This document shows positions 3,505 to 22,292 of a DNA stretch of 24,134 nucleotides, piece after piece. This DNA is from a virus. How positions within the stretch are numbered: the first letter of the stretch is position 1; every line of letters begins with the position of its first letter. The stretch spans positions 1-24,134 of the IMG/VR virus record IMGVR_UViG_3300015245_000222, one strand, 5' to 3'. The notes under the pieces are model-generated. The model worked only from the letters and a program-made list of their open reading frames with translations. It was not told where the DNA came from and did no database searches. A program made the position numbers and the translations under genes.

Positions 3505-3526
3505 ATCCTAGCAGAATCCTGACAGC
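3505..3526 (-). promoter_or_regulatory. Operator-like inverted repeat O1 with -10 TAGGAT
   Basis: On the plus strand it reads CCTAGCA-GAATCC-TGACAGC (3507-3526), matching the 20-bp inverted-repeat family described in the findings. On the minus strand the left half overlaps a -10 TAGGAT (3505-3510). The predicted transcript would have a leader of about 40 bases before ATG 3462, unlike the leaderless members of the family. It probably drives the secreted protein gene. Confidence 0.55.
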
Positions 3527-3571
3527 AGAGCGACCCGACACCCTGACGGATGCCGGGCCGCCTGCAGCCGG

Positions 3572-4120
3572 TCAGAACTTCGTGATGCAGACCGGCCCCA
3601 GCCCGTTGGCCCGGCTGAACTCGTCGCTCAGCGGTGAGCCGCAGCGGGCGCAGACGGTGAACTCACGCGAGTAACGAACGGCTGCGGCCTTCGGGCCAGT
3701 GTAGAGCTGGCCCGACTCGGGGTCGGTGTAGCTGTCGGCCCTGATCGCGGCGAACAGCTCGTCGCGGGCATCGCCGCGCACCGGGTACTGAGCCCACGTG
3801 CCAGGGGCGCCGACGAGGTGAGTCACGAAGCGCCGACCGGCCCACTTGGTGCCCTCGCGACCGGTGTCGACCTCGTAGAACTTGATCCCGGCGAGCGCGT
3901 CGCCGAGCGCGTACTTCGAGTCGGGCACCGCGACCGGCTCAGCGGCCACTGCTGGCGCGCTGTCAGCCTCGCACGGGGTGACCGGAGTGGTGGGCTCGGG
4001 CTGCAGGCCCCAGGCTGCGTTGGCCCTCTCGGCGGCGCAGGCCCGCACGTCGGCGATGCTCGGGTGGTAGTGGTGGCAGTGACCGCAGCGGATGCCGCGC
4101 GGGGTGGCTGTCTCTGTCAT
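3572..4120 (-). CDS. DUF6011-like protein with N- and C-terminal zinc knuckles
   Basis: This is a 182-residue protein from ATG 4120, preceded by GAGAGGAAACGATC, the same ribosome-binding context seen at 22949. The N-terminus has CGHCHHYH. The C-terminus has CARCGSPLSDEFSRANGLGPVC, the Cx2C...S..G.GPxC signature of DUF6011, which is common in actinophages and probably binds zinc. Between them lies a Pro/Ala-rich linker and a domain around KYALGDALAGIKFYEVDTGREGTKWAGRRFV. An in-frame ATG at 4159 lies exactly 6 bases after a TAGGTT -10 element, so a leaderless 195-residue form is also possible. The molecular role of the family is not known to me. Confidence 0.75.
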   Translation of the reverse strand: MTETATPRGIRCGHCHHYHPSIADVRACAAERANAAWGLQPEPTTPVTPCEADSAPAVAAEPVAVPDSKYALGDALAGIKFYEVDTGREGTKWAGRRFVTHLVGAPGTWAQYPVRGDARDELFAAIRADSYTDPESGQLYTGPKAAAVRYSREFTVCARCGSPLSDEFSRANGLGPVCITKF

Positions 4121-4156
4121 GATCGTTTCCTCTCTCATCGTGCTCGATCCGACTAG

Positions 4157-4187
4157 CATGGAGACAACCTATCATAAGCCTGTTAGG
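4157..4187 (-). promoter_or_regulatory. Operator-like site O2 and leaderless-type promoter
   Basis: CCTATCA-TAAGCC-TGTTAGG (4168-4187) belongs to the 20-bp inverted-repeat family. On the minus strand it overlaps -10 TAGGTT (4166-4171), followed by 6 bases and an ATG (4159). Transcription is predicted to start at or next to that ATG. The next in-frame ATG (4120) has a good ribosome-binding site, so this mRNA may start translation at two places. Confidence 0.6.
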
Positions 4188-4219
4188 TGGAGCAAGCCAT
4201 TACACGAATCGCGTAATGA

Positions 4220-4366
4220 TCACCGCTTGCGCCGCTCCCGCCTGCCGGTCGCCTGCTGCCAGCGCGCGAGGCGCACGAGCAACCCGACGACAGCGTTGCC
4301 GGACTCGCCGACCTTGCGCTGCGGCGCACGCTTCGGCGCCGGTCCTCTTCTCGGTGGCCTCACCAT
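4220..4366 (-). CDS. Small very basic protein, 48 residues
   Basis: ATG 4366 lies 2 bases after the stop of the 43-residue gene, with GGGAG about 11 bases upstream, so the two are probably translated together. The product, MVRPPRRGPAPKRAPQRKVG followed by ESGNAVVGLLVRLARWQQ and a basic tail, is highly Arg/Lys-rich with a short amphipathic segment. It could bind nucleic acid or the membrane surface. I do not recognise it. The pair is transcribed from the promoter at 4507-4512. Confidence 0.5.
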   Translation of the reverse strand: MVRPPRRGPAPKRAPQRKVGESGNAVVGLLVRLARWQQATGRRERRKR

Positions 4367-4368
4367 GA

Positions 4369-4500
4369 TCAGTAATCTCCCATCGGGTCGGGGTCCTCGT
4401 CTGGCAGGTAGTCGGTGCCGAACAGCTCGTCGGCGCCCGCCTCGTCGAGATCGCACGCGAGGCAGGGTGAGGCTGTGTGCTCGATCGCTCGTGGTGTCAT
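4369..4500 (-). CDS. Small acidic protein, 43 residues, leaderless
   Basis: ATG 4500 follows a TAGGAT -10 element by exactly 6 bases, so the mRNA is predicted to begin at the ATG. The product (MTPRAIEHTASPCLACDLDE, then AGADELFGTDYLPDEDPDPM, then GDY) is strongly acidic and contains one CLAC pair. The next gene encodes a strongly basic 48-residue protein 2 bases downstream. The acidic/basic pairing suggests the two might form a complex; this is inference. No family is recognised. Confidence 0.55.
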   Translation of the reverse strand: MTPRAIEHTASPCLACDLDEAGADELFGTDYLPDEDPDPMGDY

Positions 4501-4506
4501 GAGACA

Positions 4507-4539
4507 ATCCTATCATGAACTTGACAGGTATGGTAGACT
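4507..4539. promoter_or_regulatory. Divergent promoters sharing operator O3
   Basis: CCTATCA-TGAACT-TGACAGG (4509-4528) is one of the best palindromes of the family. On the minus strand TAGGAT (4507-4512) lies 6 bases from ATG 4500. On the plus strand TAGACT (4534-4539) lies 6 bases from ATG 4546. Both genes look leaderless, and one operator lies over one promoter and just upstream of the other. A single bound dimer could switch both. Confidence 0.65.
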
Positions 4540-4545
4540 GTTCCC

Positions 4546-4818
4546 ATGAACATCGCGAAGCCCCGAGAGATCACCGTTAGCGGCCGGGTCGCCAAGTTCG
4601 CCCAGACGGGTTGCCCTGGCTACGGCCGCACACGCATCAGCATCGGCCGGGTCGAGCACTTCGTGGACGTCGAGGACGTGGCGCGCGACGCTGGCCGCCG
4701 CTCAACGCTGCGGCGCTACTTCGTGCAGCGCTACAACATCGACCCGACGACGATCGAGATCATCGCGCAGGCCGACGGCCCAGCGCATTACAACTACGTC
4801 ATCAAGGCGAAGGGCTGA
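4546..4818 (+). CDS. Divergent plus-strand gene, 90-residue protein of unknown role
   Basis: This gene runs against all its neighbours. ATG 4546 lies 6 bases after a TAGACT -10 and has no ribosome-binding site at normal distance, so it should be leaderless. The 90 residues (MNIAKPREITVSGRVAKFAQ...) look like a compact alpha/beta protein: GYGRTRISIGRVEHFVDVEDV, then a basic helix GRRSTLRRYFVQRYNI, then DPTTIEIIAQADGP and YNYVIKAKG. No membrane segment or catalytic motif is seen. The isolation, opposite orientation and private operator are typical of a moron-type insertion. I do not recognise the family. Confidence 0.7.
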   Translation: MNIAKPREITVSGRVAKFAQTGCPGYGRTRISIGRVEHFVDVEDVARDAGRRSTLRRYFVQRYNIDPTTIEIIAQADGPAHYNYVIKAKG

Positions 4819-4892
4819 CCTACAGCGAGCCTCGCAAGAGACCGACCCGTTCGGCCGATCACATCGCACGGCCACTCGCCGACAGGCTCGGC

Positions 4893-5063
4893 ATGACGGT
4901 GCGATGGGAAGCCAGCAGAGCGCATTACCCGTTCGATGCCGAGAAGCCCTGGCCGCTCGTGCTCAGTGAATGGATACGCTCACGGCGCCGGTCGACAGCA
5001 GCCAGAGCGCCAGCCCGGCAGGCACGAGCGCACCGGCCCACTTCGCACGCGGCCCGCCCATGA
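4893..5063 (+). CDS. Doubtful small plus-strand ORF after the moron-like gene
   Basis: ATG 4893 has ACAGG 6-7 bases upstream and opens 56 codons. The first part (MTVRWEASRAHYPFDAEKPW, then PLVLSEW) looks protein-like. The rest becomes a run of Arg, Ala and Pro typical of the antisense of a coding gene, and it overlaps the minus-strand membrane-protein gene 4963-5130 by about 100 bases. Either the real gene is truncated by the neighbour or this is a remnant. Between 4819 and 4962 nothing else is evident except a CATCGCAC/GTGCGATG inverted repeat (4863-4906), which could end transcription. Confidence 0.2.
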   Translation: MTVRWEASRAHYPFDAEKPWPLVLSEWIRSRRRSTAARAPARQARAHRPTSHAARP

Positions 5064-5130
5064 TGACAACGAGCGCGGCCAGCACGAAGCACAGCAGCGC
5101 CAGCGCTGCCAGCAGAGATCGAGCACTCAC
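4963..5130 (-). CDS. Small two-TM membrane protein, 55 residues
   Basis: GTG 5130 has GGAGG 5 bases upstream, the clearest ribosome site in this cluster. The product has two hydrophobic segments, about residues 5-24 (SLLAALALLCFVLAALVVIM) and 34-48 (ALVPAGLALWLLSTG), separated by a short basic loop GGPRAKW. This is the last gene of a chain of small membrane proteins. Two closely spaced TM segments with a basic turn are compatible with a holin-like or envelope-modulating role, but there is no direct evidence. Confidence 0.6.
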   Translation of the reverse strand: MSARSLLAALALLCFVLAALVVIMGGPRAKWAGALVPAGLALWLLSTGAVSVSIH

Positions 5131-5142
5131 AACAGCCTCCAT

Positions 5143-5277
5143 TCACGGACCCGGTATCCCGGCAGCACCGGCACCAAGCAGACCGATCAGCAGCAGCAGC
5201 CATGCCGCCATCGCCGACAGCACGGCGAAGGCGACCATGCCGAGACATACCCCGGCTGCGATCTTCCACACGCTCAC
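5143..5277 (-). CDS. Small hydrophobic protein, 44 residues
   Basis: GTG 5277 overlaps the upstream TGA (5274-5276) as GTGA, which selects this start. The product (MSVWKIAAGVCLGMVAFAVL, then SAMAAWLLLLIGLLGAGAAG, then IPGP) is almost entirely hydrophobic: one long or two short TM segments ending in a Gly/Ala tail. It is translationally coupled to the 100-residue TM protein upstream. The family is unknown. Confidence 0.6.
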   Translation of the reverse strand: MSVWKIAAGVCLGMVAFAVLSAMAAWLLLLIGLLGAGAAGIPGP

Positions 5278-5576
5278 GGCAGACGCCGGGCGTTGGCAAC
5301 GGTGCAATCCCTGATCGCCGTGAGATCGGCGCCGGGGTTGTTGATCACGCACCACGTGCCGACGAGTTGACGGTCGGTGATCTGATCAACGATCTTCGCC
5401 GTCTGCGCCGCCTGCGCCTGCGCGCACTTGCCGGTCGGCCTCGTGCACGAGCTGATCTCATTCCACGTTTCACGTGAAACAACGACACCGGCCATCACGA
5501 TGACGAACAGCAGGAAGCCGATCAGCGCCGTCAGCTCGGCCACGCTCGGCCGCCGCAGGCGGATACGCGCACTCAC
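5274..5576 (-). CDS. Membrane-anchored protein with external Cys pairs, 100 residues
   Basis: Either GTG 5576 (GTGA overlap with the upstream stop) or GTG 5579 starts this gene; I take the overlapping one. A basic N-terminus (SARIRLRRPS) precedes one TM segment, about residues 14-33 (ELTALIGFLLFVIVMAGVVV). A soluble domain follows with four cysteines: SSCTRPTGKC, GTWCVINNP and IRDCTV. The positive-inside rule places this domain outside, where two disulfides could form. The short segment KIVDQITDRQLVGTWCVIN is not a motif I know. It is part of the coupled membrane-protein chain. Confidence 0.65.
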   Translation of the reverse strand: MSARIRLRRPSVAELTALIGFLLFVIVMAGVVVSRETWNEISSCTRPTGKCAQAQAAQTAKIVDQITDRQLVGTWCVINNPGADLTAIRDCTVANARRLP

Positions 5577-5671
5577 CACGGCAACCGCCAGTTCATTGCG
5601 AGACTCACCGCGATCAGACCGAGAGCCGAACCGAGCCAGAGCGCGAGAGGTGCCCAGCGGGTGATCATCAT
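5573..5671 (-). CDS. Tiny single-TM protein, 32 residues
   Basis: ATG 5671 overlaps the upstream TGA (5668-5670) as ATGA, and its own TGA overlaps the next GTG. The product (MMITRWAPLALWLGSALGLI, then AVSLAMNWRLPW) is one TM segment with short tails. The four-base overlaps at both ends are the main evidence that it is a real gene despite its size. Confidence 0.5.
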   Translation of the reverse strand: MMITRWAPLALWLGSALGLIAVSLAMNWRLPW

Positions 5672-5931
5672 TCCTGACCGTCCTTGCCCCGCCCCATGAA
5701 CTTGTCCAGATCGAAGCGAGCGAAGGTCGGCACGCCGAGAAGTGCGCCGAAGATGATCAGCAGCACCGGCCGCTCGCCGCTTGTGAAAAACGTCTCGTGA
5801 AGCACTCCGGTGATCCCCACGATCCGACAGAGTGCGACCCAGAGATGCCGGGGCCGGAAAGGCTGCCGCCCACGCGCGGCCGATTGGATGATCGGCGCCA
5901 CGGGTGGCGGGATGCTCGTCTCGTCGCTCAC
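5668..5931 (-). CDS. Small single-TM protein, 87 residues
   Basis: GTG 5931 has GGGAGG 8 bases upstream; GTG 5940 would be too close to that site. The N-terminal part is proline-rich and soluble (SDETSIPPPVAPIIQ). A basic amphipathic stretch follows (RPRHLWVALCRIVGI), then a TM segment RPVLLIIFGALLGVPTFARF and an acidic/basic tail. The tail resembles small actinophage membrane proteins found near minor tail or lysis genes. It is the first gene after the lipoprotein and opens the lower half of the membrane-protein chain. Confidence 0.6.
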   Translation of the reverse strand: MSDETSIPPPVAPIIQSAARGRQPFRPRHLWVALCRIVGITGVLHETFFTSGERPVLLIIFGALLGVPTFARFDLDKFMGRGKDGQE

Positions 5932-5976
5932 GCACGGCACCTCCCGGCTCAGCCCTGATCGGGCCAGGCTAGCCGG

Positions 5977-6552
5977 TCACGGCCAGGCCAGCACACGCCT
6001 GATGCCCTCGGCCAGCGTGATGCGACCGGCGCAGACATCGGCCTTGAGCCGGTCCTCGATCTCATCCTTGGCGTTCGGCCGTCGACCCGGCTCGGGCCAG
6101 AGATTGGCGATGGCCGACGAGCCGCCCAGCTCAAGCGGAATTCGATGATCGATCTCGCCGAACGGGCCGTAGAAATCCGCCATCGACTCGTGATATGCGG
6201 CCACCAACGGCCCACGAATCCTGCTGATCGCGGCCGACGTCGGCCGCACCCTGCCGGTGTAGCCCGGCACGCAGATCGTCTGGCCGATGTTCTGCTGGTT
6301 GACAGCAGAGTCGAGCGCGCCGGGCGTGCAGCCGGGGTCGGGGCCGCCGTCGATCAGGTTGCAGCTCACGGGCACCGAGCCGGTGACGCGCTGACGGCGC
6401 GGAGCGGGCAGTGAAGGGGTCACAGAGCGTCCAGCAGCGCCAGGCCGGTGGGATGGGGTCGCCAGGCGCGCAGCGGGGCGCTGAGAGGCGCCAGACGCGC
6501 AGCCGGTCAGCAAGAAAGCGGCCAGCGTGACGGCTAGAGCACTACGCCTCAC
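5977..6552 (-). CDS. Lipoprotein with HNH-like nuclease domain
   Basis: GTG 6552 overlaps the upstream TGA as GTGA. The 191 residues begin with a lipoprotein signal: RRSALAVTLAAFLLTGC, with Cys18 as the lipidated residue. A Ser/Pro/Arg-rich linker follows to about residue 60. The C-terminal half carries EIDHRIPLELGGSSAIANLW, then a conserved KDEIEDRLKADVCAG block. This matches the DHxxPLxxGG...NLW form of HNH-family domains, in which the third His is absent. Two further cysteines (CNLIDGGPDPGC) may form a disulfide outside the cell. A membrane-tethered, exported nuclease-like domain could attack incoming DNA at the envelope (superinfection exclusion) or be non-catalytic. Known: the HNH motif. 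Inferred: the role. Confidence 0.75.
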   Translation of the reverse strand: MRRSALAVTLAAFLLTGCASGASQRPAARLATPSHRPGAAGRSVTPSLPAPRRQRVTGSVPVSCNLIDGGPDPGCTPGALDSAVNQQNIGQTICVPGYTGRVRPTSAAISRIRGPLVAAYHESMADFYGPFGEIDHRIPLELGGSSAIANLWPEPGRRPNAKDEIEDRLKADVCAGRITLAEGIRRVLAWP

Positions 6553-6698
6553 GACGAGTGCCGCAGATCGAGATAGACCACTACGGCAGCCACGGCAGCA
6601 CAGACACCGATGATCGTCAGCCCGAGCCAGAGCGGAATACGGCTGTCATCGCAGCCGCTCGGGATGATGATCGGGATCACCGTGGCGAGCATGGTCAC
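6549..6698 (-). CDS. Small single-TM protein, 49 residues
   Basis: I use GTG 6698, which overlaps the upstream TGA (6695-6697) as GTGA and has CAGG 5 bases upstream. ATG 6701 and ATG 6692 are alternatives. The product contains a hydrophobic N-terminal run (LATVIPIIIPSGCDDSRIP) and a clear TM segment, about residues 23-43 (LWLGLTIIGVCAAVAAVVVY), with a short LDLRHSS tail. It is coupled to the lipoprotein gene. No family is recognised. Confidence 0.55.
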   Translation of the reverse strand: MTMLATVIPIIIPSGCDDSRIPLWLGLTIIGVCAAVAAVVVYLDLRHSS

Positions 6699-6784
6699 CA
6701 TCGCCTGCAGATGAACAGCGAGCCCAAGATCACGATCACGAGCAAGGCATCGTCCAGCAGGCGATAGAGATCATGGCCGCTCAT
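6695..6784 (-). CDS. Micro membrane protein, 29 residues
   Basis: ATG 6784 overlaps the TGA of the upstream gene (6781-6783), and its own TGA overlaps the next start. The product (MSGHDLYRLLDDALLVIVIL, then GSLFICRRW) has a single TM segment, an acidic N-side and a basic C-terminus. It is too small for confident calling except by the overlaps on both sides. Confidence 0.5.
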   Translation of the reverse strand: MSGHDLYRLLDDALLVIVILGSLFICRRW

Positions 6785-6990
6785 CGCTGCTGCCTGGCCT
6801 TCGCCAACGCTACGAGGATCACCGGCCAGAGCGCCGCAGCGACGAGCACGAATATCTGCCGGGTGATCCCGGCGCGCCGCAGATCCTCGTCGACCTGCTC
6901 GCCGAGAGTGGCGAGCAAAAAGGTAGCGAAGCCGCCCGACAGGCAGCCCAGCAGCAGGTAGCCCCACAAGATCGCCCCAAGGAGAGTCAC
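6781..6990 (-). CDS. Two-TM membrane protein, 69 residues
   Basis: GTG 6990 overlaps the upstream TGA (6987-6989). An in-frame GTG at 7002 is less likely because it would extend the overlap. TM1 spans about residues 2-27 (LLGAILWGYLLLGCLSGGFA...). A charged loop follows (LGEQVDEDLRRAGITRQ), then TM2 (IFVLVAAALWPVILVALA) and a basic KARQQR tail. The hairpin topology with a charged loop resembles small phage holins. No partner endolysin is adjacent, so holin is only a possibility. Confidence 0.6.
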   Translation of the reverse strand: MTLLGAILWGYLLLGCLSGGFATFLLATLGEQVDEDLRRAGITRQIFVLVAAALWPVILVALAKARQQR

Positions 6991-7148
6991 TCGGGCCGCC
7001 ACCCGTCGAAGCGGCAGAACAGCTTGCCGTCCGGCCCGGGGGTGAGCGGCTGGCCATCGTTCGGGCAGGCCACGTCACCGACGTCCGGCCCGGCTTCCTT
7101 GAGCGCGCGCCGCTCCTGCTCGATCTCAAGCAACTGCTGCCAGCTCAC
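6987..7148 (-). CDS. Small zinc-binding-type phage protein (CPNDG...FCRFDGW)
   Basis: GTG 7148 overlaps the upstream TGA as GTGA, giving 53 residues. The N-terminal helix MSWQQLLEIEQERRALKEAG is followed by VACPNDGQPLTPGPDGKLFC and RFDGWRPE. The single-Cys pair CPNDG...LFCRFDGW is a signature I know from many actinophages, where short proteins with this pattern sit near minor tail genes. A structural or metal-binding role is likely, but the function has not been established as far as I know. Here it heads the chain of membrane proteins. Confidence 0.7.
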   Translation of the reverse strand: MSWQQLLEIEQERRALKEAGPDVGDVACPNDGQPLTPGPDGKLFCRFDGWRPE

Positions 7149-7645
7149 TGCGCACTCCCGTTGCTCGGGGGGGGCTCGACGAGCCGTAGCTTGCGCGACT
7201 CGGCCAGCGCCTTGCCGATCTGTTCGAGTGCCTGGCCGACGACGCGAGCATTCGGCCGGGGATGGGCGAGCACCACGGTCGAGAAGTCCGTCTCGCCGAT
7301 GATCGTCGACTTGCACGTGATCAGCACGAGCCATCCCGGCATGATCTGCCCGTTGGGCTGTGGCAGGGGTATCAGCGACACGTCGAACTCGACGTTCGGC
7401 AGTCCGATGGTGTGCTGTGGCAGCTCGCGCTTGATGATCGCCATCAGGCGCTCACGACCACCACGTCCGGTGAAGTCCTCGGGCGGAAGATCAGGCACCA
7501 CGGCGGGCGTGGCGAGCACGTCGTTCGGCAGGGCTGCAGGCGCGTGATGCTGGCCGCGCCGATCGTTGACAACGAAGCTCGGCGGTGCGTCGATCGACTG
7601 CGCGGGATCGGCAGGCACGAAGTCCTCAGAAGTCTGCTCAGCCAT
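7145..7645 (-). CDS. Unknown phage protein, 166 residues
   Basis: ATG 7645 lies within the last codons of the upstream gene (8-base overlap). The N-terminal 60 residues are Pro/Ala/Asp-rich and probably disordered. The C-terminal domain begins near FTGRGGRERLMAIIKRELPQ and contains alternating strands (VEFDVSLIPLPQPNGQIMPG, then WLVLITCKSTIIGETDF) and a helix VVGQALEQIGKALAESRKL. No membrane segment or catalytic motif is seen. Coupling to the CPNDG protein suggests a shared role, perhaps virion-associated. It is not recognised. Confidence 0.65.
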   Translation of the reverse strand: MAEQTSEDFVPADPAQSIDAPPSFVVNDRRGQHHAPAALPNDVLATPAVVPDLPPEDFTGRGGRERLMAIIKRELPQHTIGLPNVEFDVSLIPLPQPNGQIMPGWLVLITCKSTIIGETDFSTVVLAHPRPNARVVGQALEQIGKALAESRKLRLVEPPPSNGSAQ

Positions 7646-7904
7646 GACGGCGCACCCCCTTGCCCTTCGGCGGCACCGGCAGCTCGGGGCCGTGCTCACC
7701 CTCGAAGCTGTGCACCAGATCGGGGTCGACGTCGCCGAAGCCGCCACCCGAGATGCTCGCGCCGGACTCGACAGCCTGCGCCGCAAGGCTCGACTCGACA
7801 GGCTCGGCCGGTTCGTCGGCCACCGCAAGCTCAGGCTGCTCGGTGAACAGCTCAACGATCTCGTCGGCGTTGAGCGGGCCGTGTGCGGTAGTGATCTTCG
7901 CCAT
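7638..7904 (-). CDS. Acidic protein, first gene of the accessory operon
   Basis: ATG 7904 lies 6 bases after a TAGGGT -10, so the mRNA should be leaderless; the in-frame GTG at 7910 would lie within the -10/+1 spacer. The 88 residues (MAKITTAHGPLNADEIVELF...) are acidic and low in complexity in the middle, with a Gly-rich SISGGGFGDVDPDLVHSF stretch and a basic KGKGVRRHG tail. It opens the operon that runs through the small membrane proteins. Small acidic proteins beside capsid genes are sometimes scaffold-like, but nothing proves that here. Confidence 0.6.
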   Translation of the reverse strand: MAKITTAHGPLNADEIVELFTEQPELAVADEPAEPVESSLAAQAVESGASISGGGFGDVDPDLVHSFEGEHGPELPVPPKGKGVRRHG

Positions 7905-7910
7905 GCTCAC

Positions 7911-7936
7911 ACCCTACCTGTCAGGCTGCTGACAAG
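7911..7936 (-). promoter_or_regulatory. Operator-like site O4 and leaderless promoter
   Basis: CCTGTCA-GGCTGC-TGACAAG (7917-7936) belongs to the 20-bp inverted-repeat family. On the minus strand TAGGGT (7911-7916) directly follows it, then 6 bases, then ATG 7904. The site lies immediately downstream of a terminator-like hairpin, so it restarts transcription for the accessory island. Confidence 0.6.
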
Positions 7937-7939
7937 CCA

Positions 7940-7974
7940 GCGGCCCGAGCCTCTCGGGGAAAGACTCGGGCCGC
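7940..7974 (-). terminator. Hairpin ending the capsid operon
   Basis: GCGGCCCGAG (7940-7949) and CTCGGGCCGC (7965-7974) form a perfect 10-bp stem with a 15-base loop. It lies between the last capsid-module gene (8012-8113) and the next promoter (7911-7936), the expected place for a terminator. No U-run is seen. Confidence 0.6.
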
Positions 7975-8011
7975 CGACTCTGTCGACCAGCAGCGGTTGA
8001 CAGCTTCGAGG

Positions 8012-8113
8012 CTACGCCTCGTCGCCGTCTTCCGTCTCGCTGGCCTCGTCCTCGGGAGCCTCGACGTCACCCTCGGCGGGCGCGCCGGTGGGCTCGGGCG
8101 CTTCGGTGCTCAT
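8012..8113 (-). CDS. Micro acidic protein downstream of head-surface genes
   Basis: ATG 8113 has AAAGGA 6 bases upstream, the same context as the start at 9054. The 33-residue product begins MSTEAPEPTGAPAEGDVEAP and continues with EDEASETEDGDEA. It is almost entirely Glu, Asp, Pro and Ala, so it is disordered and strongly acidic. The strong ribosome site and the fit in a tight operon support it as a gene. No function can be given. Confidence 0.55.
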   Translation of the reverse strand: MSTEAPEPTGAPAEGDVEAPEDEASETEDGDEA

Positions 8114-8176
8114 GGTGGTCCTTTCGTCTGCGACTCGATCCAGGTAACTGCTGAGATCCACCAGATCAGCCTACGG

Positions 8177-8635
8177 TCAGGCAGCCGCCACCGAGGCACC
8201 GATGTCGAGCGGCACGTAGGTGATGTCCCACTGAACGGTGCCGGTCACCGTGGATGCCGTGGTGATCGTGACCGCACCGGCCACCGCGATCCATCCTGAC
8301 GGCGCGATGATGCCACCGCTCGCGACGACGATCAGCGCGCCCCCGTCGAGCTTCGAGATCAGCGGCGAGCCTGCCGTCACGGGGATCGTCCCGGCCGACG
8401 AGAGCGCGGCCGGTGCCGACGTGCCGGTGTAGGTCGGCGTCAACCCGACCGTGGTCGCGTTGGTGCCGCTCAGCGTCGTCACAACGAGCCCCGTGAGGGA
8501 CCTGATCAGAATGCGGCCACCGGTGATGGTGAAGATGCTGCCGATGGTCGTGCTCGGCAGCGCTGCCGCCGCGCGGGTGACATTGATGCCGAGCGCGATG
8601 GTCCGAACGTCCTGACTCTTGACGATGTTGGTCAT
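8177..8635 (-). CDS. Head-surface (decoration or fibre-like) protein
   Basis: ATG 8635 overlaps the upstream TGA by one base (TGATG), giving 152 residues. It is rich in Thr, Ala, Gly and Val with regular beta-strand patterns (IGSIFTITGGRILIRSLTGL, PAALSSAGTIPVTAGSPLIS, SGWIAVAGAVTITTASTVTG). The position two genes after the major capsid protein is where actinophages place decoration or head-fibre-like proteins, and the composition fits a beta-sandwich. No enzyme motif is present. Virion location is inferred. Confidence 0.6.
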   Translation of the reverse strand: MTNIVKSQDVRTIALGINVTRAAAALPSTTIGSIFTITGGRILIRSLTGLVVTTLSGTNATTVGLTPTYTGTSAPAALSSAGTIPVTAGSPLISKLDGGALIVVASGGIIAPSGWIAVAGAVTITTASTVTGTVQWDITYVPLDIGASVAAA

Positions 8636-9054: not shown

Positions 9055-9100
9055 GGTCAGATCCTTTCGAGGTAGGGGGTTGATTGCCTACCCGGAGCGA

Positions 9101-9132
9101 GCGCCGGGCGGGGTGTGAATGCCGCCCGGCGC
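9101..9132 (-). terminator. Hairpin just after the major capsid gene
   Basis: GCGCCGGGCGG (9101-9111) pairs perfectly with CCGCCCGGCGC (9122-9132), an 11-bp stem with a 10-base loop. It lies 16 bases after the capsid stop codon and no U-run follows. It may be a partial terminator that keeps capsid mRNA higher than downstream mRNA, or a 3'-end stabiliser. Confidence 0.5.
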
Positions 9133-9148
9133 CAGGTCCGGCCAGTCG

Positions 9149-13937: not shown

Positions 13938-13946
13938 CGAAGCTTG

Positions 13947-15287
13947 TCAGTCGATGAACCGCACGTTGTACTCAGGTCGAAGATCATAATGGGCGACGAG
14001 ATAGCGAGTCATGTCCAGACCGTGATCATCGGCCTTCACCGGCGTCTCTTTCGGCCGCTCGGTCGAGCCGTCCCACACGTAGCCGGGGAACTCGTCGAGC
14101 GTGCACGTCGGCCGCTTACTCTCGACCAGCTCGGCATCGGGATCGATCAGCGCGTTCCGATGCAGGAAAAGTCTAGGCCGACCGTCACCGGCGAGCTGCA
14201 GGCGACGCTGCACAGCTTGTATGCCCTCGGTCACGGCCTTGTGCGCCGGGGTTGTGACAAGCCCCGTCTCTTTCTCGAAGACTGCGCGACCTTCGGCATC
14301 GTGGTCGCAGACCACGACCTGCGGCCGGGGCTCGCGCCAGCCTTCGGCCCGGTGTCGGCCTTCGTGCATCACCGAGCGCAGGATCTTCGCCGCGTGCTCG
14401 GCGACGGTGCGCTTCGTCCGGTAAATCTCCCGATAGAGATAGAGCCGCCCGTCGGGATCGATTGCCCAGAAACCGCAGACGAACGGGTTGGTATAGCCGA
14501 AGTCGATCGACCATGCGCGCGGCCATTCGAGCGGCGGCGGCAGCAGATCGACAACATGCAGCGCGGGGTCGAAGCCGTCATAGACCAAGCCCTCGGCGGC
14601 TGCCCAGATGCCTTTACGCAGCCGCAGGTAACGCGGGCCGGTCAGCTTGTCGAGCTTGCCGAGATACTCGGCGCCGTGCTCGGTGATCTGGCCGTCGTCA
14701 TCGAACAGCTCGGGGTTGTCTTCGTGGCGCGATTCGAGCATAACCGTGCGGCCTTCGACCGAGCGTGCACGCAGCCAGTGTGTCGGCTTGTCGGGGTTGC
14801 AGTCGGCGATGAGCTGTTGGAACGAGACGACCCACGAGCGCAGCCGGGTGGTGAGCGATTCCCAATCGTTGATCGTCAGCTCGGTGGCTTCCTGCACATA
14901 GATCAAGTCATACTCACTCGACATGATGCGCGATGGCCGGTCGAGCCCACCGATCGTGATAGTGCTGCCGTTCTGATAACGATACTGCGGCGCCTCGCGG
15001 GGGCCACCACCGTAGAACGTCACCACGAAGTTGCTCATGGCCTCGGGGATCACGAAGCGCTCAAGCGTCTTGATGGCCGTGGTGGCGAGCGAGGTGGCCG
15101 TCTTGCGAACGATCAACGCACGCATGCCGGGATTGAGCAGACACATCAGGTGGATCTTCTCAAGGCAAGCACGCGACTTGCCGGTGCCAGCGGGGCCGCT
15201 GATCACAACCTCAGCATCACGTCGCTGCCCAAGCTCCTGAGCTGCACCGCGCGGAACGTAGCGATGCTCAAGCGCAGTTGCGCTCAC
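13947..15287 (-). CDS. terL: Terminase large subunit
   Basis: GTG 15287 overlaps the upstream TGA. The 446-residue product carries an N-terminal ATPase: Walker A GPAGTGKS (residues 31-38), an ALIVRKTATSLATTAIKTLE segment (57-76) and Walker B EYDLIYVQEA with Glu133. The C-terminal RNase H-like nuclease shows WSIDFGYTNPFVCGFW with Asp262, a second acid in VVVCDHDAEG (328-330) and a third in ADDHGLDMTRYL. Known role: the motor packages DNA into the prohead and cuts the concatemer. All catalytic landmarks are present, so it should be active. The length is ordinary for the family. Confidence 0.93.
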   Translation of the reverse strand: MSATALEHRYVPRGAAQELGQRRDAEVVISGPAGTGKSRACLEKIHLMCLLNPGMRALIVRKTATSLATTAIKTLERFVIPEAMSNFVVTFYGGGPREAPQYRYQNGSTITIGGLDRPSRIMSSEYDLIYVQEATELTINDWESLTTRLRSWVVSFQQLIADCNPDKPTHWLRARSVEGRTVMLESRHEDNPELFDDDGQITEHGAEYLGKLDKLTGPRYLRLRKGIWAAAEGLVYDGFDPALHVVDLLPPPLEWPRAWSIDFGYTNPFVCGFWAIDPDGRLYLYREIYRTKRTVAEHAAKILRSVMHEGRHRAEGWREPRPQVVVCDHDAEGRAVFEKETGLVTTPAHKAVTEGIQAVQRRLQLAGDGRPRLFLHRNALIDPDAELVESKRPTCTLDEFPGYVWDGSTERPKETPVKADDHGLDMTRYLVAHYDLRPEYNVRFID

Positions 15288-15628
15288 GGGTAGATGTAGC
15301 CGTCAAGTCGCTGCGCTCGCGAGCGCTGAGCTGCTGCACGCAGCGCTGCGATCGAGGCGCCGAGATGCACGGTGTCATCAAGCGGCTCAAGCGGATGATC
15401 CCACATCTCGTAGTGACGCCGAGAGCACCACGGCCGAAACGCCATCATCTGCGGGCACGCCCTGCACGTCGGGCAGTGCGGGCCGAAGCAGCAGGGGAAA
15501 CCAGCGTCTCGCGCGATGCCCGTGCGGTAGTCGGGCGTGCTGAATACGGCGTGCGACAACTCGAAGAGCAGAAGCGCATCAGCGACAGCAGCACTAGCGG
15601 CCAGTTCGATCGGACTCATGCCTTTCAC
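15284..15628 (-). CDS. Cys-rich protein between the terminase genes
   Basis: ATG 15628 overlaps the upstream TGA (15625-15627) and the stop overlaps the terminase GTG, so it is coupled on both sides. It has 114 residues. The middle holds a dense cysteine cluster, GFPCCFGPHCPTCRACPQMM, followed by RPWCSRRHYEMWDHP, likely binding one or two zinc ions. The N-terminal helix (SPIELAASAAVADALLLFEL) and the C-terminal ALRAAAQRSRAQRLDGYIYP flank it. A zinc protein here might bind DNA ends or regulate packaging; this is inference from location. I recognise no family. Confidence 0.65.
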   Translation of the reverse strand: MKGMSPIELAASAAVADALLLFELSHAVFSTPDYRTGIARDAGFPCCFGPHCPTCRACPQMMAFRPWCSRRHYEMWDHPLEPLDDTVHLGASIAALRAAAQRSRAQRLDGYIYP

Positions 15629-16131: not shown

Positions 16132-16151
16132 GGTCAATCCTCCCCCTACCG

Positions 16152-16744: not shown

Positions 16745-17418
16745 ATCCCTTCCGGTGCCCACGGCCACGTGCAGCGCCATTCGCCCCACGAGTCTCGCCA
16801 CGTCCACACGCCGATTACGGCCTGCCCGGTGGCCGGGTCGATCGCGTTCGGGCATCCGATCGTCGGCGACGGTGGGGTGCTCGGCGCGGTCGCGGTCGGC
16901 GACGGCGGGGCCGTGGTCGAACTGATCGGCACGGGGCTCGTGGTGACCTTCGGTGCCGAGATGGCCCGCCACCGGAAGACGTCACCGGCAGCCGTAGTGC
17001 ATTGCATCAGTATGTGATCAACAGTGTGCCCGAAGGCGCCATGCTGCGAGCAGAACTCGCCAGGACCAACGAACGGGCGGTTGCCGGGCCGGGCGGCAGA
17101 AAGCTCGCCCGGCCCGGCAACGCGAGGCGTGGCCACGGCAGCCGAAGCAACCACCTGCACCACCGGCCGTAGACCTGAACGCGCCTCGCCATCGATCCCG
17201 GCCGTGCTCGTTGCGGTCGGGATCGTCACCGGCCCGCTCGGGGGGATGAGCTGAGCCGGGAGATTCATGAATGCTGCCACGATGCCCATGATCGCACCGA
17301 TGACGATCGCCAGCAGAATGGCGATCGTCCAGGTGCCGACAGTCGGGCCGGTCGGCTGGCGCCGAGGACGCACGAGCGGCCGGGTGTCGGCCGGTCGGGT
17401 CAGCTCGGTCACGGACAT
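16741..17418 (-). CDS. Membrane-anchored protein with extracytoplasmic domain
   Basis: ATG 17418 starts 225 residues; no clear ribosome site is seen, but the upstream gene ends only 13 bases away. A basic N-terminus (RPLVRPRRQPTGP) precedes one TM segment, about residues 30-51 (WTIAILLAIVIGAIMGIVAAFM). A long Pro/Thr/Ala region follows, then EFCSQHGAFGHTVDHILMQC, a Cys-containing block I have seen in actinophage and actinobacterial small domains. The end (GVWTWRDSWGEWRCTWPWA) is Trp-rich. The orientation suggests the Cys and Trp parts are outside the cell. It is coupled by GTGA to the secreted protein, so the two may act together. Confidence 0.65.
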   Translation of the reverse strand: MSVTELTRPADTRPLVRPRRQPTGPTVGTWTIAILLAIVIGAIMGIVAAFMNLPAQLIPPSGPVTIPTATSTAGIDGEARSGLRPVVQVVASAAVATPRVAGPGELSAARPGNRPFVGPGEFCSQHGAFGHTVDHILMQCTTAAGDVFRWRAISAPKVTTSPVPISSTTAPPSPTATAPSTPPSPTIGCPNAIDPATGQAVIGVWTWRDSWGEWRCTWPWAPEGM

Positions 17419-17430
17419 GGCAGGAAGCTA

Positions 17431-18045
17431 TCAGCTCGAAGCGAGCTGCACAAGGCGAGCACGCACGTCGGCCACATCGGCGAACCGCCCGTCGAGCATC
17501 GCCCGGCGCAGCTTGCCGCTCTCGGTCAGGATCCCCCAGCCGTCACCCTTGAGCAGCAGCGAGCTGATCTCGACGGGGATGGGCTCGCCGACCGGCGCAC
17601 CGTCGCACTCCCGGCCGTCGAGCTTGTGCTTGTGCAGCGCCCCGTCGATCGTCACGGCCTTGATCTTGCCGCATCGGCTGCAGGCCCGCTGCCCGTTCTC
17701 GTCGATCACGCCCCGGGCGTAGGTCAGCCGGTGCGGGATGCCGTTGGTCTCGACGAAGACGAGCGCCTTGCCGATCTCGCTGGCACGTCCCTTGGGTCGC
17801 TCGTCAGCGCCCGCCAGGCGACCTGGCACGAGCACCCCGACGTGCACCTTGGGCCTGCGATCGCTGGCGCCCCGGGCGGGCGCAGGAGGCGGCGCGGTGC
17901 CCGCCAGGACATCCCAGGCCCGGCGCTCGTCAAGCGTCTCGACGACGCGGCGCAACGGCGGCTTGTGCAGCCAGTCATGATCACCTTCGGGCTGATCGTC
18001 AGGATCGATCAGCCCGAAGACATCACTACCGGGAGGCTTGATCAT
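17431..18045 (-). CDS. Zinc-knuckle protein coupled to the helicase
   Basis: ATG 18045 overlaps the helicase TGA (18042-18044) as ATGA; a GTG 18 bases earlier is not needed. The 204 residues contain a Pro/Ala-rich middle, then KALVFVETNGIPHRLTYARG and a metal-binding CSRCGKIKAVTIDGALHKHK followed by DGREC, that is Cx2C...H...C. The C-terminal segment LKGDGWGILTESGKLRRAML carries helices. Coupling suggests it works with the helicase, for instance in nucleic-acid binding. No family name can be given. Confidence 0.65.
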   Translation of the reverse strand: MIKPPGSDVFGLIDPDDQPEGDHDWLHKPPLRRVVETLDERRAWDVLAGTAPPPAPARGASDRRPKVHVGVLVPGRLAGADERPKGRASEIGKALVFVETNGIPHRLTYARGVIDENGQRACSRCGKIKAVTIDGALHKHKLDGRECDGAPVGEPIPVEISSLLLKGDGWGILTESGKLRRAMLDGRFADVADVRARLVQLASS

Positions 18046-19661
18046 CGCTGGCCTTCGATCCACTTGGTCAGCGTGCCGTCGAAACGCTGGCTCGCCAGAC
18101 CGATACTGATCTTGTCGGAAACGGCGCCAGAGCGCTCGCCTTCGACAGCCTCGGCACCGAGCCGAACAGCATAAGCAAGTTGCTTAGCGTTCGCCTTGCG
18201 CTTGCGCCAGGCGCGATCCTTCGCCGAGATCATCTGTTCTTCGACGGTGATCGCCGACTCGCCGTGTGCCATCGCGTAACCGAGATCGGCGACGTCACGC
18301 GCGAGCATCCCGCCACGGTCGGCCTTGGCCTTCACCCATGAGTTGCGCGAGTACCACCCGACGTGGAACGAGCCGGTCGGCAACGGGATCAACACGATGA
18401 AACGCTCACCGGCCTGAATGAACCAATACCCGGCGCGCGTCTGCAACCACTGCTGCCGGGAGTCGGCGAACAGATCAACCTCGCGCGCCTCGGTCGGCCC
18501 GTGGTACGCCTCGCGATCATCATCTTCGCGGTCCTCGTCAGGTTCAGCGTCGATCGCTTCGAGCAGCCCGACCCCTTCGGCGACGGCGACCTCACGCCCG
18601 GCCAGGGTGGCGATCGAGCAGAGCGAGTGCTTGCCGGTGGCACCAACGACGTCGATAACGAGCGCGCCGATCTTGCCGGGGAACGGCCGCAGCACCCTGC
18701 CGACCATCTGAATGAACAGCGGCTCGCTCTGCGTGGGCCGGGCGATGATGCACACCTCAGCGCGCGGCGAGTCGTAGCCCTCGGTCAGCACCATGCAGTT
18801 GCAGAGCACGTCGACCCGACCGGCGTCGAAGTCGGCGAGAGCTGCACGCCGGTCGGTCAGCGGCATCGCGCCCCACACCATCGAGCTGCGTACACCGGAC
18901 TCGACGAGCGCCTCATGGAACACGCGGGCCGATTCGACGGTCGGAGCGAACAGCAGCGCCGGGCGGCCAGCGGCCTGATCGACGTACGCCTTGGCGACCA
19001 GCTCGGGCGCGAGGCTGGCTTCGAGCGCCTCGCCGAGCTGCCCTTCGGCGTAGTCGCCACCCGAGCGGCGCACGTCGCGCAAATCGAGATCGGGCACCTT
19101 CACGTGGATGCCCTTCGGGTCCACGAGATAGCCCTTGCGGATCATGCTCAGAATGTCCTGCTGGTAGACGATCTCTGCCCAGACGTCACCGAGCTTCGCG
19201 GAGTCGCCTCGTTTCATGGTGGCCGTGAAGCCTGCCCACGGGATGTCGAGCGCATCCATCACGGCCCGGTAGGTGGGCGCTGTCGCGTGGTGCGCCTCGT
19301 CAACGATCCCGACGGTGAAGTTCCCCAGCGCGGAGCGCCGGGCCTCGCTGGCGAGCGTCTGGATCGAGGCCACGACGCAGGAGGCATCGATCTCGTTGCG
19401 ATCAGCCTTGACCACGCCGATCTGCAGGGCCGGGTCGACCGAGCGCAGCTTGGCGACGGCCTGCTCGATCAGCTCGTCGCGGTGCGCGAGCACGAGAGTA
19501 CGCCCACCCTCGGCGGCCACCCCGGACGCGACGGCCGAGAAGATCACTGTCTTGCCCGAGCCGGTCGGCAGCACCACGGCTGGCCGGTTGGTGCCGTCGG
19601 CCCACGCCTGCGTGACGGCGACCACGGCGTCCTGCTGGTAGTCCCTGAGCTTGATCGTCAT
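18042..19661 (-). CDS. Superfamily 2 DEAD/DEAH-type helicase
   Basis: ATG 19661 is 7 bases after a TAGACT -10 and has no ribosome site, so the message is probably leaderless. It has 539 residues. Motifs: Q-motif region LRDYQQDAVVAV (5-16), Walker A PTGSGKT (32-38), DEAHHA (121-126), TAT (146-148), then the second RecA lobe with LLFAPTVESARVF, VLTEGYDSPRAEVCIIARPT and the arginine-finger motif QMVGRVLRPFPGK. This resembles the SSL2/UvrB-like phage helicases used in replication or recombination. The last ~170 residues after the helicase core (YWFIQAGERFIVLIPLPTGS...) are an extension that I do not recognise. It heads the long operon. Confidence 0.9.
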   Translation of the reverse strand: MTIKLRDYQQDAVVAVTQAWADGTNRPAVVLPTGSGKTVIFSAVASGVAAEGGRTLVLAHRDELIEQAVAKLRSVDPALQIGVVKADRNEIDASCVVASIQTLASEARRSALGNFTVGIVDEAHHATAPTYRAVMDALDIPWAGFTATMKRGDSAKLGDVWAEIVYQQDILSMIRKGYLVDPKGIHVKVPDLDLRDVRRSGGDYAEGQLGEALEASLAPELVAKAYVDQAAGRPALLFAPTVESARVFHEALVESGVRSSMVWGAMPLTDRRAALADFDAGRVDVLCNCMVLTEGYDSPRAEVCIIARPTQSEPLFIQMVGRVLRPFPGKIGALVIDVVGATGKHSLCSIATLAGREVAVAEGVGLLEAIDAEPDEDREDDDREAYHGPTEAREVDLFADSRQQWLQTRAGYWFIQAGERFIVLIPLPTGSFHVGWYSRNSWVKAKADRGGMLARDVADLGYAMAHGESAITVEEQMISAKDRAWRKRKANAKQLAYAVRLGAEAVEGERSGAVSDKISIGLASQRFDGTLTKWIEGQR

Positions 19662-19668
19662 GGGGGAT

Positions 19669-19690
19669 AGTCTACCACACTTCTGTCAGG
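19669..19690 (-). promoter_or_regulatory. Operator-like site O5 and helicase promoter
   Basis: On the plus strand TCTACCA-CACTTC-TGTCAGG (19671-19690) is a weaker member of the inverted-repeat family. On the minus strand -10 TAGACT (19669-19674) overlaps it and lies 7 bases from ATG 19661. A neighbouring CTGTCAG-GTC-CTAACAG half-site pair (19684-19700) may extend binding. The site would control the whole replication/head operon. Confidence 0.6.
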
Positions 19691-19740
19691 TCCTAACAGC
19701 TTGTTGAGTGCCCCGCTGCCATGATCAATATGACCATAGC

Positions 19741-19852
19741 CCCGGCCCCGGGCACTCACTGCCCCGACTCCCCCCTTCGGGGGCAGTCGGCGGGGCAGTA
19801 GTGGGAAGTGCCCCGCACTGCCCCGGGGCAGTGCGGGGCAGTGCGGGGCACT
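19741..19852. repeat. GGGGCA/TGCCCC iterations with 32-bp palindrome (possible replication origin)
   Basis: This lies between primase and helicase. TGCCCCGCACTGCCCC (19809-19824) is followed directly by its reverse complement GGGGCAGTGCGGGGCA (19825-19840), a perfect 32-bp palindrome. GTGCGGGGCA is repeated in tandem at 19831-19840 and 19841-19850, so an alternative 18-bp stem (19807-19824 with 19835-19852, 10-base loop) can form instead. Upstream, CCCCCTTCGGGGG (19771-19783) forms a UUCG-type hairpin inside an imperfect larger stem. Repeats of this kind beside replication genes suggest origin or regulatory structure, but a double terminator of the primase transcript is equally possible. The rest of 19691-19875 shows no gene. 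Confidence 0.6.
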
Positions 19853-19875
19853 CAACATTCTGACAGTGATCACGA

Positions 19876-21885
19876 TTACTCACTGTTCAACTGATCTGAC
19901 AGATAGTGTACCTGCGCCCGGCGAGCGCCGATGTCGATCCTGATCTCCGAACGGGCTGCGGAGAGCGCCTTCGCGAAGCGGCCCTGCCCCCAGGCGAGCG
20001 CCGTCCTGATCTCGTTCTGTCCCTGGCCGGGATTGGCGCCCACGTAATCGATTAACGCTTGCGCGTCCGCGTTGCGCCGGGTGGTCGCCCGACTCCATCC
20101 CCCGAGCGCGAGCCGACGGCTGGCAGAGTCGTAGCTGATCTGCTCTTCGGGATGATCGACGTCTCTTCCCTCAGCCCGCAGATATCGCTCGGTGCCGGGG
20201 TAAATCTCGCGCGTCAGATACCAGATCGCGTCAGGCCAGGCTTCGAGCCGCTGGCTTCCGATGGCCGTCTCTTCGCCGGACTCGACGTGCGCCTTCGGCG
20301 TATGTACCGGCATGACGAGCTGGCCGACCCCGGCCTCCATCTTCACCACGTCGAGATGATCGAGAAACCGGGAGACCTGCGCCTCGTCGTTGCCGTTGTC
20401 GAGGCTGCCGACGTAGGCGCGCGAGTACGGGTCGATGATCCACGTCTCGACCTGGCGCTCACGCAACCAGGCTGTGATCCACGCGCGCACCCTGGGATCA
20501 GCCACCGGCAGCGACCGCCCGCGCAGATGCAGCACGTGCACACGCTCGGGGTTGGTCAGCCCCACCTCGCGCAGCCAGCGCCGGTACTGATGCTGCTCGA
20601 CCTCGTAGTTGAAGATCGCAATCGAGCCGTCGGCCGGGCTGACCTCGAAGCGCCCCAGGAACGGTTCGTCGTCGACCAGCGAGCGCACCAGCTCGTTGAC
20701 GATCGTGGTCTTCCCCACCTTCCGCCCGGCGACAAGGATCGCGTTATGCCCGGCGCCGAGCATGCCCTTGACCCGCCACTCGACCGGCAGGTCGGGCAGC
20801 GTCAGCTCGTTGGCGAGTGAGCCGAAGTCGGCCGGTGCCGTCCAGCTCTCGGCGTGCGCCTCGATCGCGAGCAGTTCTCGTGCCTGCGCCATGACCCGCA
20901 ACCGGTGCAGAGCGTTCGCCACGTCGTCGCTGAGCGCCTCGTCGGCAGCTTCGGTCCCACCGTCAGGGGTGACCGTCGGCAGCGCCTCACCGGCCGTCCA
21001 GGGGCGGGGCTTGCGAGTGCCCGCCTTGATCTGCCGGGTCACGAGCGCGCGCATCTTCACGTCGTCGCCGAACTTGCGCCACGTCCAGCCGTCGAGCGCG
21101 CCCCGCATGATCCGATTGGCCTGATGCTCGCTGAGCTGTTCAGCGCCGACATACTGCCCGGCCCGGTAGGCCAGCGAGCTGATCGCGCCGAAGCCAGATC
21201 CATCAGGAGTAGCACCTAGCTGCTCGGCCAGCTCGTAGACGCGAGCGAGCACGGCTGCGTCGTCGGCGCGTGGCCGGTCAGCCTGCCCGCCCGGCTCGTC
21301 GAAGCCGTCGAAGCTGATCTCGGTGCTGCTCATCTCGTCAGGCCGGTCGGCAGCGGGCGGCCCGATCCCCGTGGCGACGAAGCTCGGCACCACGGGGAGA
21401 TCGGCGACCTTCGGCATCGAGTGATAAGCGAAGACGAGCCCGCCCGATCCCTTGACGTCGACACCGGCCGCGAGCTTGCCGGTGTTGTCGCAGCCGACCG
21501 GCGACTTCGGATCGGCCCGGTAGAAATAGTGCCGCCCACGGCTCGGCGTCTCAGCCCACGGATGGTCACGCCTCGTTGCGAGAGTAGTGATCCCGGCGAG
21601 TCCTCGCCACGCGCTGACGCCGTGGTGGCCGGACTTCTCGTCGGCATCGATCACCACGATGCCGGACTTGCCGCAGTCGATCGCCGGTGTGGCGAGCGGT
21701 TGAGCCGTCCACCATGCCTCGATCGCCGTCTTCTCCATGGTGGACATCTCGCGCCACGAGCGAGCGGGGAACTCGACGTCGGTCCTGTTGCCCTCGGCAT
21801 CCAGCTCGATGCGGACGGGAAAGATCGAGTAGCCCTTGGCGGCCAGCGCCAGTGCGAGATCGAGCCCGGAAATATTGCCGGTCAT
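19876..21885 (-). CDS. Primase-polymerase / AAA ATPase replication protein
   Basis: This 669-residue protein starts at ATG 21885. The N-terminus is a bifunctional primase/polymerase (Prim-Pol) domain: LALALAAKGYSIFPV (10-24), catalytic acids in GIVVIDADEKSG (D80 and D82), TPSRGRHYFYR with His119 (113-123) and GVDVKGSGGLVFAY with D143. The C-terminal half is a RepA/DnaB-like ATPase: Walker A GRKVGKTT (387-394) and Walker B TWIIDPYSRA with D485. A winged-helix-type tail (ALIDYVGANPGQGQNEIRTA) ends the chain. It should prime and unwind DNA at the phage origin. The gene lies just upstream of the palindromic repeat region. No clear promoter is seen in 21886-21939. Confidence 0.9.
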   Translation of the reverse strand: MTGNISGLDLALALAAKGYSIFPVRIELDAEGNRTDVEFPARSWREMSTMEKTAIEAWWTAQPLATPAIDCGKSGIVVIDADEKSGHHGVSAWRGLAGITTLATRRDHPWAETPSRGRHYFYRADPKSPVGCDNTGKLAAGVDVKGSGGLVFAYHSMPKVADLPVVPSFVATGIGPPAADRPDEMSSTEISFDGFDEPGGQADRPRADDAAVLARVYELAEQLGATPDGSGFGAISSLAYRAGQYVGAEQLSEHQANRIMRGALDGWTWRKFGDDVKMRALVTRQIKAGTRKPRPWTAGEALPTVTPDGGTEAADEALSDDVANALHRLRVMAQARELLAIEAHAESWTAPADFGSLANELTLPDLPVEWRVKGMLGAGHNAILVAGRKVGKTTIVNELVRSLVDDEPFLGRFEVSPADGSIAIFNYEVEQHQYRRWLREVGLTNPERVHVLHLRGRSLPVADPRVRAWITAWLRERQVETWIIDPYSRAYVGSLDNGNDEAQVSRFLDHLDVVKMEAGVGQLVMPVHTPKAHVESGEETAIGSQRLEAWPDAIWYLTREIYPGTERYLRAEGRDVDHPEEQISYDSASRRLALGGWSRATTRRNADAQALIDYVGANPGQGQNEIRTALAWGQGRFAKALSAARSEIRIDIGARRAQVHYLSDQLNSE

Positions 21886-21939
21886 GCCGTGATCTTGGTA
21901 GGGTCGAGCACGGGATCACACTCCCAAGTCTCAAGCGGG

Positions 21940-22009
21940 ACGCCTCAGCCCCGGCCGATGACGCGAGCACGTCGGCCGGGGCTGTGCCATGTCTGAGCCC
22001 CGAGGCGTC
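21940..22009 (-). terminator. Nested hairpin between RHH regulator and primase
   Basis: CAGCCCCGGCCGA (21946-21958) pairs perfectly with TCGGCCGGGGCTG (21972-21984), a 13-bp stem with a 13-base loop. The flanking GACGCCTC (21940-21947) can pair with GAGGCGTC (22002-22009), either as an outer stem or as an alternative. It lies 3 bases past the stop of the RHH gene and ahead of the primase. It could terminate the regulator transcript. The pairing choice may act as an attenuator. Confidence 0.55.
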
Positions 22010-22012
22010 AGG

Positions 22013-22234
22013 CTATGCCTTGCTACCGGCCTTGTCAGCCACGGGCTGATCACCCGTCTCGACCAAGCGCCGACGGTGCAGCTCTTCGCGCTTGGGCAGC
22101 CCGTAGAACAGCACGTCTCGCACCACTGCGGCCTCGCTGACGCGCTCGCCTTCGTGGATCGCCTTGAGCCGTTCCTTGTCGTCCTTGCTGATCAGGATCG
22201 ACAGCGCCTCGGTGAACTCTGCTTCTCTCGCCAT
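22013..22234 (-). CDS. Ribbon-helix-helix-type DNA-binding regulator
   Basis: ATG 22234 (MAREAEFTEALSILISKDDK) is preceded, 7 bases earlier, by a TACCAT -10-like element; ATG 22243 is an alternative. The 73 residues begin with a beta-type segment EFTEALSILISK and two helices (DKERLKAIHEGERV and SEAAVVRDVLFYGLPKREEL), the standard RHH arrangement also known for actinophage regulators. Such proteins bind inverted repeats as dimers of dimers. The gene sits between the two diverging transcription units, next to operator O6, so it is the best local candidate for the protein that reads the operator family. That link is inference. Confidence 0.7.
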   Translation of the reverse strand: MAREAEFTEALSILISKDDKERLKAIHEGERVSEAAVVRDVLFYGLPKREELHRRRLVETGDQPVADKAGSKA

Positions 22235-22241
22235 GATCGAC

Positions 22242-22292
22242 ATGGTACCAGCGCTGACAGCATCTTGACAACTGACAGGAACATGATAGGTT
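22242..22292. promoter_or_regulatory. Divergent control region with operator O6 and full promoter
   Basis: On the plus strand TTGACA (22265-22270), a 16-base spacer and TAGGTT (22287-22292) form the only complete -35/-10 promoter I see, 6 bases before GTG 22299. The spacer is filled by ACTGACA-GGAACA-TGATAGG (22271-22290), a member of the inverted-repeat family that also overlaps the -10. A further CTGACAG half-site (22254-22260) lies nearby. On the minus strand TTGTCA...TACCAT (22242-22247) may serve the RHH gene, with an 18-base spacer. Confidence 0.65.

Follow-up and report, generated by a model that had tools for sequence, protein, structure and literature searches.

Do the palindromes scattered between the genes of an uncultured phage form one operator system, and which protein would bind them? 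The regulation of uncultured actinobacteriophages is poorly known. We analysed a 24,134-bp stretch of phage DNA (the window), which is the whole of IMG/VR record IMGVR_UViG_3300015245_000222. Compared with relatives of 36-51 kb, it probably represents roughly half of a phage genome, and no tail genes were identified within its 24,134 bp. The capsid protein was up to 61% identical to those of IMG/VR contigs, 46% identical to that of Streptomyces phage Dagobah and 54-56% identical to those of two Streptomyces genomes found in a genome scan with the capsid. These capsid relatives point to a streptomycete or a close relative as the probable host.

A palindrome family enriched between genes

A first-pass annotation had described six 20-bp inverted repeats (CCTRTCA-N6-TGAYAGG, spacing 7-6-7) in intergenic or start regions. 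We recovered all six. Two mismatches to the consensus occur in each of the sites at 3507 and 22271 and three in the site at 19671, with 5-7 of 7 symmetric pairs per site. Five sites fell within two mismatches (0.17 expected; none of 100 dinucleotide shuffles reached five), and seven matches fell within three mismatches (1.8 expected). In an exhaustive palindrome search (4096 half-sites x 9 spacings, ranked by enrichment outside genes), CTGTCA-N6-TGACAG ranked first, with a log10 p of -7.2 compared to -6.2 for the best of 150 shuffled windows.

Scanning with a position weight matrix added a seventh site at 22253-22272 (GCTGACAGCATCTTGACAAC), in tandem with the site at 22271-22290 and overlapping it by two bases. 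In leave-one-out scans, six of the seven left-out sites ranked first among 24,073 positions; the site at 19671 ranked third, and a weak tandem partner of this site lies at 19692-19711. Only 6.1% of the window is intergenic, and all strong matches lie there. At a score of at least 10 we observed ten intergenic matches and none in coding regions; the even spread over genes and spacers that had been named as the counter-case did not appear. A dispersed phage operator system is marked by a single motif concentrated at many promoters within one phage genome, and such a motif is present here in seven copies. We did not find a description of this motif in a literature library of incomplete coverage.

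The sites lie at predicted, mostly leaderless promoters

Leaderless genes in Actinobacteria are marked by a TANNNT element ~12 bp ahead of the start codon (PMC3160421). Reading the sequence for TAGNNT-N6/7-[AG]TG gave predicted leaderless transcript starts at 4159-, 4500-, 4546+, 7904-, 19661- and 22299+ (signs denote the strand). The annotated overlap or contact of each repeat with a -10 element held for all seven sites, and most of these -10-like elements belong to leaderless starts. Counted by promoter, a site lies on or directly beside the -10 at eight promoters.

We numbered the putative operators from left to right. Operator 1 (GCTGTCAGGATTCTGCTAGG, 3507-3526, minus strand) lies over TGC-TAGGAT (3505-3510), ahead of the gene for a secreted-type protein (2833-3462-); this gene is leadered, with a Shine-Dalgarno-like GGGAAG ahead of its start. 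Operator 2 (CCTAACAGGCTTATGATAGG, 4168-4187, minus strand) lies over the extended -10 of TGA-TAGGTT-N6-ATG (-10 at 4166-4171), which leads into the gene for a DUF6011-containing protein (4159-). Operator 3 (4509-4528), the perfect consensus, is common to two divergent leaderless promoters, TGA-TAGGAT-N6-ATG (-10 at 4507-4512; 4500-) and TGG-TAGACT-N6-ATG (-10 at 4534-4539; 4546+). The open reading frame from the leaderless ATG at 4500- (window 4220-4500) stops after 43 codons, and the longer listed frame is another one.

Operator 4 (CTTGTCAGCAGCCTGACAGG, 7917-7936, minus strand) abuts the -10 of TAGGGT-N6-ATG (7911-7916), at the start of the accessory operon (7904-). Operator 5 (CCTGACAGAAGTGTGGTAGA, 19671-19690, minus strand), the weakest, lies over TGG-TAGACT-N7-ATG (-10 at 19669-19674), ahead of the helicase gene (19661-). 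Operator 6 (GTTGTCAAGATGCTGTCAGC, 22253-22272, minus strand) sits between a -35-like TTGTCA and a -10-like TACCAT (22242-22247; TACCAT-N7-ATG) ahead of a gene for a ribbon-helix-helix (RHH)-like protein (22234-). Operator 7 (ACTGACAGGAACATGATAGG, 22271-22290, plus strand) lies over TGA-TAGGTT-N6-GTG (-10 at 22287-22292), the start of the early operon (22299+), with TTGACA 16 bp upstream.

The downstream half-site belongs to the extended -10 at five promoters; at three (4546+, 7904- and 22234-) the palindrome is upstream of the -10, at a distance of 0-5 bp. Measured from the first translated base, site centres fall at ~-18 to -28, and the sites span the -10 to -35 region. We found no TTGACA-like -35 at 4500-, 4159-, 3462- and 19661-. 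Since TGATAGG is largely the extended -10 itself (TGN-TANNNT), independent support for a binding site comes from the other half only. An internal control is provided by the leaderless promoter at 17425-17430 (minus strand; TGA-TAGCTT-N6-ATG, 17418-), which has TGATAG without the mirror half; a -10 alone thus does not make the palindrome. Judged by sequence and position, the window sites are operators in the strict sense, at which a protein would bind. An operator within the -10 of a leaderless promoter packs promoter, operator and translation start into ~40 bp.

Three related phages carry their own palindromes in a similar layout

The annotation had named a lack of conservation in related phages as evidence against the family. 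Size, promoter position and gene context of the sites are conserved; the exact sequence stayed at control level. Among 42 structural relatives, the exact motif matched no more often than control patterns. One match of score 23, on contig L046, was rejected as an operator because it lies inside a long open reading frame. A scan of viral contigs for the motif together with a leaderless start returned 29 matches, mostly in low-GC contigs with single sites, and no network. In the two Streptomyces contigs found via the capsid, the leaderless-palindrome pattern was no commoner than its control in those genomes. The primase and the 22949+ product, used as queries, returned no relatives among viral contigs.

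Four further records (G043, G034, G026 and G032) were reached through their helicases, which are related to that of the window. G034 and G026, which resemble each other closely, are counted as one lineage. Because the relatives' patterns were picked after the first sites had been seen, their counts are suggestive only, most strongly so for G034 and G026, where CTNTTGACRYGTCAMYAG is present in five copies per genome (shuffles gave 0 to 0.05), and less so for G043, where we counted six copies of CCTRNTA-N6-TANYAGG, including two that overlap (shuffles gave 1.6, with a maximum of 4). An unbiased search of G034 had given the lead for the scan of G034 and G026. In these two genomes the sites lie on the -35 or spacer regions of promoters (for example, TTGACG-N17-TACCGT); in G026, a near-perfect CCTACTA-N6-TACTAGG is additionally placed on TAGGTT-N6-ATG. 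The G043 palindromes lie mostly over TAGGNT-N6-ATG starts. We saw no such palindromes in G032.

An operator is found at the RHH-like gene's own junction in the window (22253/22271), G034 (40676), G026 (15290) and G043 (20608/20700). Another precedes the helicase operon in each (19671 in the window, 37386 in G034, 11400 in G026 and 26263 in G043). Operator placement relative to the promoter varies between lineages. What the sequence itself shows is the site family, its location at promoters and a layout that relatives have in common.

An RHH-like protein is the best regulator candidate

The regulator is most likely the 73-aa RHH-like protein encoded at 22013-22234 (minus strand), which would act as an autoregulated repressor that blocks RNA polymerase. 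It is the best candidate because RHH-like genes adjoin operators in three lineages: the window, G034 (40287-40691) with G026 (14913-15305), and G043 (20752-20997). The RHH-like proteins of the three lineages are related by sequence comparison; the window protein matches those of G034 and G026 with an E value of 2e-4 (0.2-Mb database), and the latter two are fusions with a phage zinc-finger domain, itself weakly matched. A direct search of IMG/VR and GenBank phages gave no homologues beyond G034 and G026.

Curated RHH family models (Pfam, NCBIfam) did not match the window protein. A profile of three of these proteins aligned to the RHH segments of CopG, NikR and PutA and to an 'Arc-like' protein of Dagobah. 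Both hhalign scores (21.9 and 23.3) were above all 100 shuffles run for each, and the resemblance extends over strand-helix-helix. The best solved-structure profile match was AvtR, which was not significant (E = 0.094). Two AlphaFold monomer models place an N-terminal helix where the RHH fold needs a strand; a strand formed only in the dimer is easily missed in monomer models. A fold search with the first model returned no solved RHH fold and no meaningful match. The Arc-like gene of Dagobah also lies at a divergent junction, and neither a comparable palindrome set nor leaderless starts were found in that phage.

Proposed repression by occlusion and its alternatives

With somewhat better than even confidence, we propose that the seven palindromes are operators of one dimeric or tetrameric phage regulator, most likely the RHH-like protein, which represses by occlusion. 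That a single regulator serves all the sites, as the annotation had suggested, is probable, and it would coordinate most promoters of the window. Bound to its operators, it would cover ~-10 to -35 and block the RNA polymerase open complex. Blocking of RNA polymerase is suggested by position, because the site centres lie over the -10 to -35 region. Through the two tandem sites at 22253 and 22271, the RHH-like protein would shut off both the early operon (22299+) and its own gene. The helicase, accessory and left-end promoters would likewise be silenced until the regulator level falls. In this scheme we infer binding, which protein binds, that it represses rather than activates, and the timing.

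The operators may instead be bound by another phage protein, which we consider rather unlikely. One candidate is the 90-aa product of 4546-4818 (plus strand), whose gene stands behind operator 3, the only perfect-consensus site, and which gave an HTH_3 match (E = 2.9e-4 in one genome, 0.013 against Pfam). Both scores, however, are under the family cut-off. No homologue of this protein was found in the relatives that have the same layout, whereas each of the three lineages has an RHH-like gene next to an operator. The other candidate is a repressor from the missing part of the genome: the 24-kb record may be a fragment, with probably about half of the genome absent, so the true regulator may be encoded outside the window. 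It is improbable that the bound protein, whichever it is, activates or times middle or late promoters. The lack of a clear -35 box at the four site-bearing promoters named above would fit activation, but extended -10 promoters need no -35, no activator family was found, and sites that overlap the -10 with centres varying over ~10 bp suit occlusion.

The motif could also be a mere promoter signature, an extended -10 (TGN-TAGNNT) plus an upstream element read by a host or phage sigma factor, with no repressor involved. The TGATAGG half does coincide with the extended -10 at most sites, and a TANNNT ~12 bp before the start is normal for actinobacterial leaderless promoters (PMC3160421). This explanation seems to us a long shot. 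The distance from palindrome to -10 at 4546+, 7904- and 22234- is not fixed as it would be for a sigma element, the second half mirrors the first and is missing from the leaderless promoter at 17418-, the 22253/22271 tandem has no promoter reason, and in G034 and G026 the palindrome is on the -35 instead of the -10.

A search for tyrosine and serine integrases (PF00589, PF00239) gave no match in the window or in the four relatives, all of which may be fragments. This would remove the main reason for calling the system immunity, but does not prove virulence, since the records may be incomplete. A role in timing lytic growth is no less likely than one in immunity.

More tentatively, and with a little less than even confidence, we suggest that genome-wide regulation in this group of actinobacteriophages relies on an RHH rather than a helix-turn-helix protein, whose operators are merged with the extended -10 of leaderless promoters. 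The operators would shift in sequence among relatives while site size and targets (the RHH gene junction and the helicase operon) stay fixed, which would make a natural series of co-evolved RHH-operator pairs. If so, the four related phages would be matched regulator-operator pairs of differing specificity, from which changes in DNA recognition by RHH proteins could be read. They would also be a source of compact, leaderless, repressible promoters for Streptomyces.

Comparison with known operator systems

The temperate Streptomyces phage phiC31 has conserved inverted repeats that are palindromic operators of one repressor, dispersed over its genome. The window resembles it, by description, in its dispersed palindromic sites, which would likewise serve one repressor. 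RHH repressors of the Arc/CopG type are small, autoregulatory in position and bind inverted-repeat sites of ~20 bp. Textbook cases control one or two promoters, whereas the window candidate would control several operons across 19 kb.

The likeness to mycobacteriophage stoperators that the annotation had drawn did not survive comparison. Cluster A stoperators (L5, TipsytheTRex) are asymmetric 13-mers in more than 20 copies, read by a monomer, with an orientation tied to transcription and many copies outside promoters; they also occur in short intergenic spaces, where they stop elongation (PMC9283540). Both systems would place many sites for a single repressor across an actinobacteriophage genome. 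The window sites, however, are 20-bp palindromes and every one is on a promoter. Having found neither asymmetric, oriented 13-bp sites nor promoterless intergenic sites, we rejected the stoperator reading.

By analogy of function, the nearest documented case appears to be the Bacillus prophage SPbeta, whose 15-bp motif SPBRE is bound by MrpR, a recombinase-like master repressor (PMC10516654). There too, one short motif recurs at many promoters of one phage genome under a single phage repressor, here a candidate. The window differs in its 20-bp palindrome, leaderless promoters and RHH-like candidate, and in showing no sign of lysogeny. Because SPBRE/MrpR is nearest by function and stoperators differ in symmetry and location, we class the window system as dispersed phage operators, a known kind, in which the RHH-like candidate regulator and the leaderless promoters would be new.

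Other structured and repeated elements

Between the primase and helicase genes, window 19691-19880 is predicted to form a large branched fold (RNA, -126.6 kcal/mol, z = -8.4; DNA, z = -9.3), with a closing stem plus GGGGCAGT/ACTGCCCC hairpins. It matched no Rfam family at its cut-off, and is a candidate replication origin, terminator or RNA. The comparable intergenic stretch of G034 (37553-37793; L123:17553-17793), upstream of the helicase region, contains many TGTTATG/CATAACA repeats, like origin iterons.

G043 carries repeated intergenic blocks with the palindrome CCTAGGGGTTGCGTATGCAACCTAGG at 31.1-33.9 kb (for example, L134:13370-13420), ahead of about six small genes. These blocks may be a second repeated regulatory element. 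At the end of the same record (35950-36090), repeats at 33 bp spacing probably form a tandem array. In G032, the neighbouring genes at 22258- and 23140- (L129) have near-identical leaderless promoter regions, ACAGAGTGC-TAGGGT-N6-ATG, with one base different over the stretch shown.
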